Positions 51,863-56,226 of a stretch of DNA of 64,000 nucleotides are shown here, piece by piece. A model generated the notes under the pieces. The model saw nothing but the letters and a program-made list of their open reading frames with translations, had not been told where the DNA came from and did not search any database. Every line of letters starts with the position of its first letter. Position 1 is the stretch's first letter. The position numbers were made by a program, and so were the translations under genes. Source of the DNA: Bdellovibrionia bacterium (GTDB lineage: Bacteria > Bdellovibrionota > Bdellovibrionia > Bdellovibrionales > JAGQZY01); assembly GCA_030427805.1 (NCBI GenBank), contig JAUICP010000005.1, forward strand, positions 62,001 to 126,000. The letters run 5' to 3'.

Positions 51863-51901
51863 AAACCCATGTCCATAGTTTATAGGAGATTCTATGGGTT
51901 T
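51863..51901 (+). promoter_or_regulatory. Leader hairpin that includes the start codon of the deamidase-like gene
   Basis: AAACCCAT (51863-51870) is the exact reverse complement of ATGGGTTT (51894-51901), whose first three bases are the start codon. CCATAG (51873-51878) can instead pair with CTATGG (51892-51897). TAGGAGA (about 51883-51889) lies in the loop. Either pairing would limit initiation. A second stem, GGCTTCA/TGAAGCC, lies at 51824-51846. This is a structural inference from sequence. Confidence 0.4.
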
Positions 51902-52844
51902 ATGGTGTTTACAGTTCTTAAAGAAATCCGTGCTGGTGGCGGTTCTCGCATTGTTAACCGGTCAAGTTTGTTTGGCTGAATGGAAGTATGAGCCCATTGA
52001 TATTCACTATGGTGAAGCTTGGTCGAGACTTCCCAGAGAAGAAGTCCTTAAGATTTTCGATCATCCCGATCATTTTTACTACTATTGGCGCAAGCAAACT
52101 TTTTGGCGTTCGAAAAAAGCGGTCCATGAAATGAATCAAAAAGATTTAGATGAGCTCGCTAAAGATTGGTTCATGAAAGGGAAAACGGACCGGCCCGATT
52201 TTATGACTCGAGAAGACGCTCAAGCACTTTTTAATTTTATAAAGAATCATCCCGTAGCTGGTCTTCACATGGTTGATCACTATGATCCCCACGGAAATAT
52301 TCAATTCTGTTTTGGGAAAGCCTTTGCCACTCATATTGCTTCTTTGCATGCCGGCCTCGATCCCGACTCCGTTCGCAAAGTCTTTGCTGTTGGAAAAATG
52401 GGGAAATGGTCGTTTCATGTGGCCACAATGGTTAAAGCCCATGAAGGCGGATATTGGGTTATTGATCCGCTCCTTGATAGACCGATGATGGTTTACGAGT
52501 GGATGGAGTATTGGGATAATCGTTATAGCAACGCAAAAATGCGTTTTTATTATACCGAAGGGGATCGATTTGCCTACTCTGTTCCCGACTATTCTCGAGT
52601 TAATCTCGGTTTAGATTTATCGGCCCAAGCTGATTTTTATAATAATTATTTTAAAGACTTCTTAGATAACATAGTTAAGCCTGAAAATCGGGTGGGCTTA
52701 CCCGAACTGAATAAGCGCGAAAATAATCAACCTTTTTACGATGTTCTATCCTATTACAGTCGTCCTACGGTTTACCGTAGTCCTTTCTTTGGTGGATTGA
52801 AGTGCGAAGTTCACTTTAAGTTCTTGAAAGAGAGAGGAAGGTAA
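51894..52844 (+). CDS. Exported protein-glutaminase/transglutaminase-like cysteine enzyme
   Basis: ATG at 51894 follows TAGGAGA. A signal peptide (VLVAVLALLTGQVCLA) ends before EWKYEP. Residues 139-191 show a Cys-His-Asp order in typical context: QFCFGKAFATHIASLHAGLD (C139), WSFHVATMVKAHEGG (H175) and YWVIDPLL (D191), as in secreted protein glutaminases and related deamidases. A MYEWMEYW-like aromatic block follows. The remaining C-terminal part is unassigned. If right, it deamidates glutamine in proteins outside the cytoplasm. Its stop overlaps the next start as TAATG, so both are probably made together. Confidence 0.78.
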   Translation: MGLWCLQFLKKSVLVAVLALLTGQVCLAEWKYEPIDIHYGEAWSRLPREEVLKIFDHPDHFYYYWRKQTFWRSKKAVHEMNQKDLDELAKDWFMKGKTDRPDFMTREDAQALFNFIKNHPVAGLHMVDHYDPHGNIQFCFGKAFATHIASLHAGLDPDSVRKVFAVGKMGKWSFHVATMVKAHEGGYWVIDPLLDRPMMVYEWMEYWDNRYSNAKMRFYYTEGDRFAYSVPDYSRVNLGLDLSAQADFYNNYFKDFLDNIVKPENRVGLPELNKRENNQPFYDVLSYYSRPTVYRSPFFGGLKCEVHFKFLKERGR

Positions 52845-54553
52845 TGGTTTTTTTTCGAGCTTGTTTACTTTTTTTAACTCTGCTGGCTTGTCTGCCCACG
52901 TTTGGGCAAACTCCTCAGGGCTTTGACGAGTATATTGATCTCGAGCAAAACTACAATGTGTTTGGACGAACCAGCGAGGTCTTGTCCCCAGAGCAGGCCG
53001 CCGAGCGGAATCTTTTCGGAATTTATATTCCGAGTGACCAGTTAACAGTAGTTCGTTCAAAAAAATGGCGAGAGGACCCTTGGGCTTCGGTTTTGGGGGA
53101 TCACCGCCTGAGTCTTCCCTTGTTTGTTAGAAATGACCAAGAAGACAAAATGAATCTTATTAAAGACGCTAACCCAGGTGCCCTGGTTTTTAGTGAGCAA
53201 AAGGCCCTCCGCCTACAGGGGAAAAGTTCATTTCTCTCTTGGTGTGATGGGTGTCAGCGGCCGATGACATTTTTGAAAATTCAAACCAAGTGGGGCAGTC
53301 AGCAAAAAAATACGGCCTACCATGGGCAGCTCGCTGTGAGAGTTAATGACGTTATAGAAAGTCTTATGGAAGGAGCTTCTGGCTCAGGAGTTGATTACTT
53401 TCCCGAACGATTCTCGGTAGCCTACAAAGACGATAATGTCAGGCATTCGTATTCAGTACGATCTTTAGAAACGAAATTTCAGAGCGCTATGGGGCAAAGT
53501 AATGAGGTGATGCTTCCGGTCCATGGAATTCTTCGCAAAGAGTTTTTTGCCGAAAGAGGTTGGGATCTGGATCAATGGGTCCTCGAAGAGTACATTCCCC
53601 ATTTAGCGAAAATGAATGCATATTTACAATTTGAAAAAGGGATTTATCTTGAGGGGCACACTCAGAACCTCGTTGTATTCGTTGACCAAGACACTGGCGA
53701 AATCAACCGTATGGCCTTTCGCGATATTGCTGACATCATGATAGACCCTTTTATCGGACTGGCGAAGGGTGAAAAACATCATTATGAGAGTTTAAAAGAA
53801 ACGACCCAGCCTTGTCTTATTTATCAGCGGACCTATGAAGATCCAGATATTCCGACGCCAAAGGCCTACTATGAGTGGTATATGGGGCAGGGGATAACGA
53901 CTTCGACAAAAAATTGGTTTAAAAAGCGGAAGATCGCTAAAAAATACCTACAGGTCTTTTTTGCAGAATACGAAAGTCTTACTGGAGAAGCCGTGCCGCG
54001 ATCGATTCGCCGTAGTGTTAGAGAAGGATTTGCGCTCCAATATTTGGGTTCGGAATCGTCGGCTTCAATTATGGGAAATGCAGCAGAAGCCCTACAGAAG
54101 CACCAGTTTGCTAAACTATGGCAGTCCTATTTTCGACCGCAAAATTTTAAAGAAGTGCCCGTTAGCGAAAAAAGTGTTGAGCTGATTCAAGAGCTTCTCA
54201 AGACAAACTCCTTTGTTTTCTTTGAGAGTCATGCTTTGGGACTCATCAAAGGGATTAAGGTTAAAAGCTCGCAATCACTTTTGAAGCGTCTCTTCTCTGT
54301 TTTCTCCAGGTCCCGAGCGAAACTCTACTTTGATGGCGATCAATTATTCATTCAAAAATCCAATGGTCGCCCCTTGGGTCTCGCCTATATGTTGAGTGAA
54401 GAACAGAAGCTGGATTTTCGCCTTCTTTTGGCCTCCGACCCCCTTCTGAGTGAGGCCAAGCAAAGTCATGGATCCGATCGAGCGAACCAACTTTCGGTGG
54501 TTCCGCAGAACAGGGCCATTGGACTTTGCGAACTCAGCTTACTCGGCCGTTGA
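52844..54553 (+). CDS. Exported protein with an IucA/IucC-like C-terminal motif
   Basis: A signal peptide (ACLLFLTLLACLPTFGQ) precedes a 550-residue protein. Around residues 255-300, YLEGHTQNLVV and NRMAFRDIADIM give E270-x-H272-x-x-N275 and R293-D294, the pattern of the C-terminal lobe of IucA/IucC-type (NIS) siderophore synthetases, which are normally cytosolic. Two nearby cysteines (WCDGC) lie about residue 138. No other NIS gene is in the window and the export signal argues against classic siderophore synthesis. It shares one base with the deamidase-like gene, so the two may act together. A terminator follows. Confidence 0.75.
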   Translation: MVFFRACLLFLTLLACLPTFGQTPQGFDEYIDLEQNYNVFGRTSEVLSPEQAAERNLFGIYIPSDQLTVVRSKKWREDPWASVLGDHRLSLPLFVRNDQEDKMNLIKDANPGALVFSEQKALRLQGKSSFLSWCDGCQRPMTFLKIQTKWGSQQKNTAYHGQLAVRVNDVIESLMEGASGSGVDYFPERFSVAYKDDNVRHSYSVRSLETKFQSAMGQSNEVMLPVHGILRKEFFAERGWDLDQWVLEEYIPHLAKMNAYLQFEKGIYLEGHTQNLVVFVDQDTGEINRMAFRDIADIMIDPFIGLAKGEKHHYESLKETTQPCLIYQRTYEDPDIPTPKAYYEWYMGQGITTSTKNWFKKRKIAKKYLQVFFAEYESLTGEAVPRSIRRSVREGFALQYLGSESSASIMGNAAEALQKHQFAKLWQSYFRPQNFKEVPVSEKSVELIQELLKTNSFVFFESHALGLIKGIKVKSSQSLLKRLFSVFSRSRAKLYFDGDQLFIQKSNGRPLGLAYMLSEEQKLDFRLLLASDPLLSEAKQSHGSDRANQLSVVPQNRAIGLCELSLLGR

Positions 54554-54558
54554 ATTTC

Positions 54559-54579
54559 GCGCTATTTCAGCGCTTTTTT
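54559..54579 (+). terminator. Intrinsic terminator after the exported gene pair
   Basis: GCGCT (54559-54563) pairs with AGCGC (54569-54573) around ATTTC and is followed by six T residues. Confidence 0.75.
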
Positions 54580-54669: not shown

Positions 54670-56226
54670 GTGGTTCGGTTTGTTATTATTTTCATTTCGT
54701 TGATTATTTTCCCCCTTGTCGGTCTACAGGCCCAAGAAGAAGAGTTTGCTTCGCAGATCATGGGGCATCCACAATTAAGGCGCCTATCATTAGCGGGTGG
54801 AACGTTAACGGAAGAGAAACGAGATGAGTTGAGACGACGTCTGGAGCAGCTCGAAAGCCCCAACGTTCATTATGGGAAGAGACAAAAGCAAGGGCGAATG
54901 TTGCTCAGTAATCTAAAAATGATGCTCGATTTAGCCGAAGATTTTAAGCTGCAGAATGTGGGTTCCGGTGAAAAGCTAGAGACTTTAGTGGTTCAGGTTC
55001 TGTTAATGATCGTCTCTGAATTGAAAGATCATGAAATTACTGGTTTTCACATCAACGTACTTAACTCGTCCATTGAAATGTCCTATGGGGATTTAAACAA
55101 AGTAGTAAAAGCGGGGTCGAATGCCCGTAAGCCAGTTGGTGAAGTAAAGTTTAATGGATTGATTTATTCTCAAGAGCTGGTTGATGAGTACAATGGTATT
55201 CAATTACAAATTGCAAATGTACTGCAAAGGGGACTTCGTCTTCAATCAAGTGTAGCAGATGCAGAGGCCGAAGAAACGGTGGCAACTCTAGAGCTCAGTG
55301 CCAGCGAGGATGGTGTTTATACATCGGAAGGGACCCCGGCTTTTAGAAAATCACACGCCCTTGACTATTTCGCGGCAAACTACCTCCAACCCAATGGGAA
55401 ATATGCTTATAATCGTCCGCGTGCTGAGCGTATTGCCATGCGTGAATACTTGATGAACCGACGAAGTGGTATGAGTTTTGGATCCCTAGGAAGAATTTTT
55501 GGAGCGGAGAGCGCAGGTCAAGTTGCGGAACTGGTTGGAGAGTTGGACTCTGCTGAAGATATTGATTTTGCCTTAGAAACGAATCCTGCGATGGTTGACG
55601 ATGTCTTGGTTTCAATTGTTGAGATGAATCGACTGGGACTCGGCGATCGCGTCGATGATGTCATAAAAGCCAGCCTTGAAGGAGTGGCAGCAATTGGCGA
55701 GAAAGTCCCTGTTGATCAGTATTTCTCGGGTTTAGCTCGGGTGTTAACTGACCCTGTAAAAAGAAATCAATTGGCAAGTCTTCCCGTTCTTGGATCTGAT
55801 GTCATCATCAATGCGGTGTCTTTAGATCCCGACGGCGATACGCGAGTTATCGTGCAAAGTGTGATGGCAGAAATTATCGAGAAGGTTGGTTACTCAGGGG
55901 ACGCCGATGATCTTGCCGAGCGTGTTGAAGGAGCCATGGGGAGAGCCTTAGCCGAGGGATTTCGTCTTCCTGGGAGGGTTCTCGGTCTCGGTGTTCAAGC
56001 CGTTGGATTGACGGCAGTCGGTGTTAGAGAAACCGGTCAATTCCTTGGCGATAATGTACCTGTTGTTGCCGAAGGATTTTCGAATAGTTTTTCGGAAGGA
56101 GCGAGTCGAGTTACCTCTGGTGCCAGAAATCTTTGGCGACAGGCCCGAGAGCGCATGGGCCAAGGACAGAGCCCAGGCAATCTTCTTCCAGCACCTGCGC
56201 GCACTTGCCAGTCTAACTTCTTATAA
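54670..56226 (+). CDS. Exported protein of unknown function, helical
   Basis: GTG at 54670 follows AGGAAGAG. A signal peptide (FVIIFISLIIFPLVGLQA) is followed by EEEF. The first half has a long charged helix region (KRDELRRRLEQLE), the second is Ala/Val/Gly-rich with repeated short helices (AEIIEKVGYSGDADDLAERV). There is one Cys near the C-terminus (ARTCQSNFL). No catalytic motif or family is recognised. It is a single gene between two terminators, and its end is close to the large inverted repeat. Confidence 0.75.
   Translation: MVRFVIIFISLIIFPLVGLQAQEEEFASQIMGHPQLRRLSLAGGTLTEEKRDELRRRLEQLESPNVHYGKRQKQGRMLLSNLKMMLDLAEDFKLQNVGSGEKLETLVVQVLLMIVSELKDHEITGFHINVLNSSIEMSYGDLNKVVKAGSNARKPVGEVKFNGLIYSQELVDEYNGIQLQIANVLQRGLRLQSSVADAEAEETVATLELSASEDGVYTSEGTPAFRKSHALDYFAANYLQPNGKYAYNRPRAERIAMREYLMNRRSGMSFGSLGRIFGAESAGQVAELVGELDSAEDIDFALETNPAMVDDVLVSIVEMNRLGLGDRVDDVIKASLEGVAAIGEKVPVDQYFSGLARVLTDPVKRNQLASLPVLGSDVIINAVSLDPDGDTRVIVQSVMAEIIEKVGYSGDADDLAERVEGAMGRALAEGFRLPGRVLGLGVQAVGLTAVGVRETGQFLGDNVPVVAEGFSNSFSEGASRVTSGARNLWRQARERMGQGQSPGNLLPAPARTCQSNFL

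Follow-up and report, generated by a model that had tools for sequence, protein, structure and literature searches.

Synthetases of nonribosomal peptide synthetase-independent siderophores (NIS) are normally cytosolic and ATP-using, and an N-terminal GHxxHPxxKxR motif is one of their features. A study on AcsD (PMC3323832) describes NIS chemistry as carboxylate adenylation and condensation, with H444, R305 and E442 as active-site or mutated residues, and a report on a Chryseobacterium protein-glutaminase (PMC13298967) gives a putative triad C156-H197-D217 and a pro-peptide of 114 residues. In a stretch of 64,000 nucleotides from a Bdellovibrionia bacterium (contig JAUICP010000005.1, positions 62,001 to 126,000; hereafter the window) with a host genome of 4.5 Mb, two genes were predicted to encode exported proteins, P0001 and P0002, resembling protein-glutaminases and NIS synthetases, respectively, followed by a third gene for another exported protein. 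We consider, with a probability of about 0.48, that the genes at this locus make up a small operon at the level of the genus, whose exported enzymes are drawn from one repertoire of proteins bearing a C-terminal Cys tail and would not necessarily catalyse successive steps on one substrate.

Family searches covered the Bdellovibrionota genomes, the PDB and profile libraries. By sequence, P0001 is related to protein-glutaminase, and the Cys-His-Asp triad of its family does not vary. The residues C139, H175 and D191, which an earlier note on this DNA had placed in a protein-glutaminase-like context, were retained in all 25 aligned family members (P0001 itself being among them), and F140, G141, G154, G167, W172, W203 and F253 were likewise invariant. 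The relation was borne out by Gln_deamidase_2, which matched 23 of the 25 members at E ≤ 0.05 (best, 3.4e-8), and by the family profile, which matched the protein-glutaminase structures 8z3i (9.4e-9) and 2zk9 (0.016) in the PDB. The profile check suggested in that note thus succeeded at the family level but not for P0001 alone, which scored 20.5 bits (E 6e-4) against Gln_deamidase_2, below the curated cut-off of 25 bits. In comparison with protein-glutaminases (2zk9, 3a54 and 8z3i; PF18626, Gln_deamidase_2), P0001 has the same Cys-His-Asp order, a W-x-[FY]-H-V motif and a following IDP motif that are common to both in the PDB profile alignment, and, as in those enzymes, a signal peptide and a stretch of some 110 residues preceding the Cys, whereas it differs by a C-terminal Cys tail and the sub-cut-off Pfam score; in addition, the NCBIfam model of the Chryseobacterium protein-glutaminase reached only 2/25 members of the family (best E 0.0026). 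C139 and C304, the latter located in the tail, are the only Cys residues after residue 30. Matches to P0001 were found in 38 of the 140 genomes of the order at 0.001 and matches to the family profile in 144 of the 368 genomes of the phylum at 1e-4, with five deamidase places in the window's own genome, one of which appeared as two pieces in the phylum search.

The E-x-H-x-x-N and R-D motifs previously pointed out in P0002 were confirmed as E270-G-H272-T-Q274-N275 and R293-D294. Its proposed IucA/IucC-like identity held in part: the family profile aligned with the ATP-site half of NIS synthetases, whereas P0002 alone gave a FhuF match below the cut-off (E 0.031, 15.2 bits versus 25.2) and no IucA_IucC match. 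A GRAS match, slightly better than FhuF (0.0051), was rejected as implausible and below the cut-off, and a SOCS match (0.066) was below the cut-off as well. The two best PDB matches of a 15-member profile (A2) were AsbB (5e-5) and IucA (0.0085); with a profile of 65 exported members (A5), NIS synthetases made up 12 of the 13 matches at E ≤ 1, led by AsbB (1.6e-8), IucA (7e-6) and AcsD (2.4e-5), then DesD and others. Profile-profile comparison of the exported family with nine cytosolic NIS synthetases of the phylum gave a probability of 96.9 (E 1.5e-10), the match covering positions 178-461 of the cytosolic profile. In a decoy test of A2 on 784 proteins, each also in reversed form, the only sequences outside the family below 1e-3 were cytosolic NIS synthetases, L134 and L148 among them, with L138 at 0.012 and the best reversed decoy at 0.51. 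At E ≤ 0.01, FhuF and IucA_IucC matched 24 and 14 of the 65 exported members, respectively. By sequence, P0002 belongs as a divergent member to a large Bdellovibrionota family, most of it exported, in which the Lys, HxQN and RD of the NIS ATP site are retained and the N-terminal motif of the cytosolic enzymes is lacking, and both family assignments of the earlier note can be regarded as good leads.

Conservation at single sites was counted over 69 exported chains and fragments, including only those with letters at the position in question, and NIS residues were numbered after AcsD by spacing. The Lys293, Arg281, RE Arg, Gln446, Asn447 and Asp464 positions are presumably those with roles in the NIS active site. 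The Lys293 position was occupied by K in 60/66 chains and by R in the other 6, the Arg281 position in the loop by R in 53/66, and the Arg of the RE motif was present in 65/68; H was found at the His444 position in 62/68, and Gln446, Asn447 and Asp464 were retained in 68/68, 66/68 and 68/68, respectively. R was present at the Arg305 position in only 15/56 chains, in a column whose alignment is unsure, and the GHxxHPxxKxR motif was found in 5/9 cytosolic NIS synthetases versus 0/69 exported chains. In the alignment of the 65 exported members, P0002 included, Q274 and D294 were retained throughout and H272, N275 and R206 in nearly all chains; P0002 also keeps K145, E270 and R293, with E270 aligned to AcsD E442. 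About 250 columns of the ATP-site half align with NIS synthetases (AsbB 3to3, IucA 5jm7, AcsD 2w02/3ffe; PF04183, PF06276), and the Lys, Arg(E), HxQN and (R/K)D motifs are found in both, whereas the exported family differs by its export, the missing N-terminal motif, the absence of R305 from most members and a C-terminal Cys in many of them.

The signal peptides reported earlier for both proteins were found at both N-termini by a rough home-made test, which also called 55/69 of the exported set, 0/9 cytosolic NIS synthetases and 17/43 window genes. At least one of the 55 calls was false (fragment L063); on inspection by eye, the 14 missed chains were mostly truncated, split or had a hydrophobic start overlooked by the test or by the choice of start codon, and L168 had no signal peptide. 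The test scored P0002 as lipoprotein-like from LLAC, and because the sister protein has LLVC at this place, a plain Sec signal would be likelier than a lipoprotein signal. A 77-row tree united the nine cytosolic NIS synthetases in one group (100/99) and placed P0002 with proteins of G267, G203 and G345 (93/90 and 91/93). As the cytosolic group shared a fork (89/79) with 16 exported rows, and as long branches were flagged, one single exported clade is not established (the root served for drawing only). Profile A5 matched 128/368 genomes at 1e-6, which is an upper bound, as some of these may have cytosolic NIS synthetases only.

The neighbours of the NIS-like genes were unlike each other, including peptidase S9, subtilase, PLD, PhoH, amidotransferase and FGE-sulfatase plus ankyrin, and no constant partner was seen in the scanned part of the listed neighbours. 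It was also noticed that NIS-like genes in G128 (L053:57-2338) and G029 (L054:7000-10044) lie directly beside, or overlap with, related genes that encode ankyrin repeats, which were weak in L053 and accompanied by an FGE-sulfatase domain in L054; that one A5 member, probably L180:665-2428 as judged from its N-terminal sequence, is a seeming fusion to a nicotinate-nucleotide adenylyltransferase-like domain; and that the gene at L063:3263-6124 is seemingly broken up into two open frames with 22 bases between them, of which the first has a partial IucA_IucC match below the cut-off. Two adjoining ordinary NIS synthetase genes, likely a siderophore cluster, were found in each of the genomes G004, G006, G007, G009 and G010 of genus g7 (L132-L136, L144-L148). 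IucA_IucC had no match in the window's genome and one in the sister genome.

Absent from the earlier note were the C-terminal Cys tails and a third gene whose product has such a tail. The three consecutive proteins end in KCEVHFKFLKERGR (P0001), LCELSLLGR (P0002) and TCQSNFL (gene 3), each of which can be read as a Cys-polar-x-x-hydrophobic tail. A less specific form of the motif, C[ERSQKN]xx[FLIM] within the last 15 residues, fits all three and was found in 27/66 exported NIS-like proteins, 10/33 deamidases, 25/29 exported ABC1 proteins and 12/1312 others, the last set consisting of sampled stretches of G000, G010 and G143 without the two families and the ABC1 protein L222. With the strict form, C[ERSQKN]x[LIVMNHA][FLMY], the counts were 19/66, 9/33 and 26/29 for the same three families, 0/8 for cytosolic NIS synthetases and 6/1312 for the others, and in mid-protein stretches of these five sets they were 0, 0, 0, 0 and 3, respectively. 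The tail Cys was the sole Cys after residue 30 in 33/66 NIS-like and 23/29 ABC1 proteins, which rules out an intrachain disulphide in these proteins; all five deamidases of the window's own genome have a Cys in the last 16 residues.

The ABC1 protein L222:7909-9993 (-) (E 1.5e-30) was noticed by its tail, and its relatives were fetched afterwards. The 30 best loci (L273-L302) gave 29 whole chains (L293 gave none), of which 27 had a signal peptide and all 29 kept HxDxHxxN and D[FY]G; 20 of the 29 were close to each other and nine diverged. One cytosolic ABC1 protein (L252) had no tail. This exported Bdellovibrionota branch of the ABC1/UbiB atypical kinases (PF03109) has export, motifs of an ATP-type kinase and a similar Cys tail in common with the NIS-like family, whereas it has no significant sequence relation to the latter and no gene in the window operon. 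In hhalign, the NIS-like family and the ABC1 protein gave a probability of 4.1, with only the kinase catalytic loop and HxQN aligned, and deamidases versus NIS-like proteins gave 0.4, that is, no sequence relation; the best value in BLASTP of P0004 versus P0002 was 0.70. Similar tails thus occur in three families, deamidase, NIS-like and ABC1, without sequence relation.

Among the other exported proteins with the tail are an M23 peptidase, a transglutaminase-elicitor-like protein and a C92 amidase-like protein. A tailed exported transglutaminase-elicitor-like protein is encoded at L073:7262-8437 (-), near a gene of the deamidase family with two genes between. Short C-terminal signals on exported proteins of unrelated fold are also seen in MYXO-CTERM and GlyGly-CTERM; those tags hold a membrane helix and a basic end, whereas the Bdellovibrionota tail is Cys-hydrophobic only. 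No curated C-terminal tag model was present among the NCBIfam matches of the 65 NIS-like (E ≤ 0.001) and 25 deamidase members (E ≤ 0.01).

The coordinates of the locus are given in the table. The one-base overlap between the two genes, described in the earlier note, was confirmed in the sequence TAATG, and the junction was identical in the sister sequence L052, whose proteins were 97% (P0001) and 91% (P0002) identical to those of the window. Both genes are under purifying selection and therefore maintained, since the ratios of nonsynonymous to synonymous substitution rates (dN/dS) between the window and L052 were as low as 0.028 for gene 1 and 0.09 for gene 2 at a dS of about 0.5; the last 94 residues of P0002 were under looser constraint (dN/dS 0.24). 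The gene order 1-2-3 was common to both genomes of the genus, that of the window and the sister G075, gene 3 of the latter being in two parts at the ends of two contigs, one of them the contig of the gene pair. Gene 3, the sole Cys of whose product after residue 30 is that of the tail, was present in 2/138 genomes of the order, both of the window's genus. The hairpin at 54559 is weak evidence for a terminator, as the window had nine terminator-like sites versus 4.1 expected.

Table. Features of the locus in the window (signal peptide cleavage and protein functions are predictions)
Feature	Position	Strand	Basis
Gene 1 (P0001, 316 aa), predicted exported protein-glutaminase-like Cys-His-Asp enzyme	51894..52844	+	open reading frame, Pfam, PDB profile, family alignment
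Signal peptide of gene 1, residues 1-28, probable cleavage after CLA	51894..51977	+	sequence, home-made test
Catalytic Cys139 codon (putative)	52308..52310	+	invariant 25/25; aligned with protein-glutaminase Cys in PDB match
His175 codon	52416..52418	+	invariant 25/25
Asp191 codon	52464..52466	+	invariant 25/25
C-terminal Cys tail of gene 1, C304: CEVHFKFLKERGR	52803..52841	+	sequence
TAATG overlap, gene 1 stop and gene 2 start, one base in common	52842..52846	+	sequence; also in L052
Gene 2 (P0002, 569 aa), predicted exported NIS-synthetase-like protein	52844..54553	+	open reading frame, profile comparisons
Signal peptide of gene 2, residues 1-21, probable cleavage site	52844..52906	+	sequence, home-made test
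ATP-loop equivalent G126-K-S-S129 (without NIS Arg) to K145, aligned with NIS Lys293	53219..53278	+	alignment
R206, aligned with Arg of NIS 'RE'	53459..53461	+	alignment
E270-G-H272-T-Q274-N275, aligned with NIS ExHxQN	53651..53668	+	alignment
R293-D294, aligned with NIS (R/K)D	53720..53725	+	alignment
C-terminal Cys tail of gene 2, C562: CELSLLGR	54527..54550	+	fits only the less specific motif form
Terminator-like hairpin, then T run, directly 3' of gene 2	54559..54573	+	weak
Gene 3, 518 aa, predicted exported, no credible Pfam family, tail CQSNFL	54670..56226	+	Pfam scan, synteny

Members of both families were found together at nine loci among 188 loci plus the window, namely the window, L001, L006 and L093 (G000), L007, L036 and L072 (G075), L052, and L158 (G143); eight of the nine show one and the same site, either in the two g1 genomes or in L052. 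In G143, a 619-aa Gln_deamidase_2 protein (L158:1540-3396, minus strand; 5.7e-31) is encoded about 1.2 kb from an exported NIS-like gene on the opposite strand, and in G014, G017 and G019 the families were 12-13 kb apart, as read by eye among the matches listed. Both families were present in 67/368 genomes versus 50 expected from independence (p 2e-4, kinship ignored). The two families thus tend to share genomes but were seen adjacent only in the window's genus. The survey of the pair in other genomes therefore gave a divided answer, the genes being kept together within the genus but not outside it, where the result is the one that the earlier note had named as refuting its proposal. The pair as a conserved unit outside the genus was ruled out, since it was adjacent in two g1 genomes only, despite the 67/368 genomes with both families. 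A genus-level operon, in contrast, is supported.

In the reading that we favour, P0001 and P0002 would leave the cytoplasm by Sec, and the tail would be used by both for the same last step, which may be anchoring, covalent modification or onward delivery; the similar tails are a separate hint of such a common last export step. P0001 would hydrolyse Gln side chains to Glu via a Cys139 thioester. P0002 would bind ATP-Mg through K145, H272, N275 and D294 and may activate or phosphorylate a substrate wherever it meets ATP outside the cell, a prey cell being the most plausible site.

Several observations weigh against this reading. A profile built from the small clade around P0002 failed to reach the cytosolic NIS synthetases (E 0.19; best decoy 0.3) but matched 43 exported members below 1e-3, so that the NIS link of P0002 runs through its relatives. 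The equivalents of the NIS loop Arg (R281) and of R305 are missing in P0002, which has GKSS where the NIS ATP-loop reads S-x-R-S/T and Q at the R305 position (AcsD numbering). AlphaFold2 models from two-sequence alignments (each protein with its L052 relative) provided no usable structure, the mean predicted local distance difference test (pLDDT) score being 37 for P0001 and 31 for P0002. The tail motif was devised after the tails had been seen, which makes the counts in the first two families (NIS-like and deamidase) descriptive rather than a test of it, and the tail of P0002 fits neither the strict form nor a loose one, only the less specific one. Predation by the host and ATP at the site of action are both our inference. 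Moreover, the tail was not significantly commoner in exported proteins at large (5/582 vs 2/573, p 0.45, under a more permissive signal-peptide test and a narrower motif, both of which had been changed between tests), one of the two tailed non-exported proteins (L218) having a signal-like start, and a sole Cys near the end was found in 4/49 exported proteins at large versus 3.0 expected. The tail as a general mark of exported proteins was ruled out on these two results. An early count of Cys in the last 14 residues (99/236 with versus 27/214 without a signal peptide) had looked strong because the loci, a biased sample, were chosen for the two families; in the G000 stretches alone it was 35/155 versus 20/156 (p 0.026), and the first motif gave 8/385 versus 1/495 in three genomes pooled (p 0.013; single genomes 0.029, 0.59 and 0.36).

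This lack of enrichment would be expected if the tail were a mere structural element, an intermolecular disulphide or a folding cap, that had arisen several times, and so would its absence, even in the less specific form, from 23/33 deamidases and 39/66 exported NIS-like proteins. Such an origin is possible, but we think it doubtful in view of one short pattern in three families without sequence relation and of a tail Cys that is often the only Cys of the exported chain (NIS-like 33/66, ABC1 23/29). At the other extreme, the tail may be an unrecognised Bdellovibrionota C-terminal signal for delivery or anchoring of enzymes sent into prey and fuelled by prey ATP, with the pair and gene 3 as one such operon. 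The tail class would then comprise deamidases and two ATP-dependent kinds that need a cytoplasm, the NIS-like and the ABC1 kinase-like proteins; this we regard as improbable. It is somewhat less improbable that P0002 and its exported relatives use an old NIS scaffold without ATP, as binding proteins or pseudoenzymes that might, for instance, sense or sequester a ligand in the periplasm. No ATP is expected in the periplasm, P0002 has neither the loop Arg nor R305, and GHxxHPxxKxR is absent from 69/69 exported chains, all of which would agree with this proposal; however, the ATP/Mg site shows, unusually for pseudoenzymes, almost no change of its Gln, Asn and Asp although the family as a whole is very divergent, and the tailed exported ABC1 proteins keep their kinase motifs in 29/29 chains.

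With respect to the pairing itself, the earlier note had proposed a coupled modification system, and we found a conserved obligatory coupling to be unsupported, adjacency being confined to the two g1 genomes and the looser case of G143. In a coupled two-step form, P0001 would make Glu from Gln, and P0002 would adenylate the new carboxylate and join it to an amine or alcohol, the net outcome being an ATP-driven transamidation outside the producing cell. The retention of the one-base overlap by the two genomes of the genus, the carboxylate adenylation and condensation described for AcsD (PMC3323832) and the presence in P0002 of E270, the equivalent of AcsD E442, speak for such a system. The pair is, however, adjacent in one genus only, though 67/368 genomes hold both families, and P0002 is without an equivalent of R305, a key active-site residue of AcsD according to that paper; the coupled two-protein system is weakly supported, and we consider its two-step form very unlikely. 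The two genes could instead be chance neighbours with unrelated roles. Both families are multi-copy (five deamidase and two NIS-like places in the window's own genome) and were not seen adjacent in other genera, and chance-adjacent pairs would be expected in about 0.075 genomes over the survey (a rough figure with copy and gene numbers assumed), so that one independent case is not extraordinary. The retention of the one-base overlap at a dS of 0.5 and the similar rare tails in three consecutive genes argue against chance, which nevertheless, although unlikely, has a higher probability in our estimate than a pseudoenzyme.

No exported NIS-like proteins and no such tail were found among the titles and beginnings of abstracts listed by searches of one open-access literature collection, nor were an exported NIS-like family or such a tail present among the NCBIfam matches of the scanned NIS-like and deamidase members. 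The terms siderophore, glutaminase and Iuc are absent from the main text of a comparative-genomics paper on Bdellovibrionota (PMC11656739). The tail is a simple searchable handle, suggesting which unknown exported proteins of Bdellovibrionota may belong together. Outside the cytoplasm, neither ligases nor kinases that depend on ATP are expected; the exported NIS-like branch and the tailed exported ABC1 branch would imply either that ATP drives chemistry in a foreign compartment or that these folds have been put to a new use.

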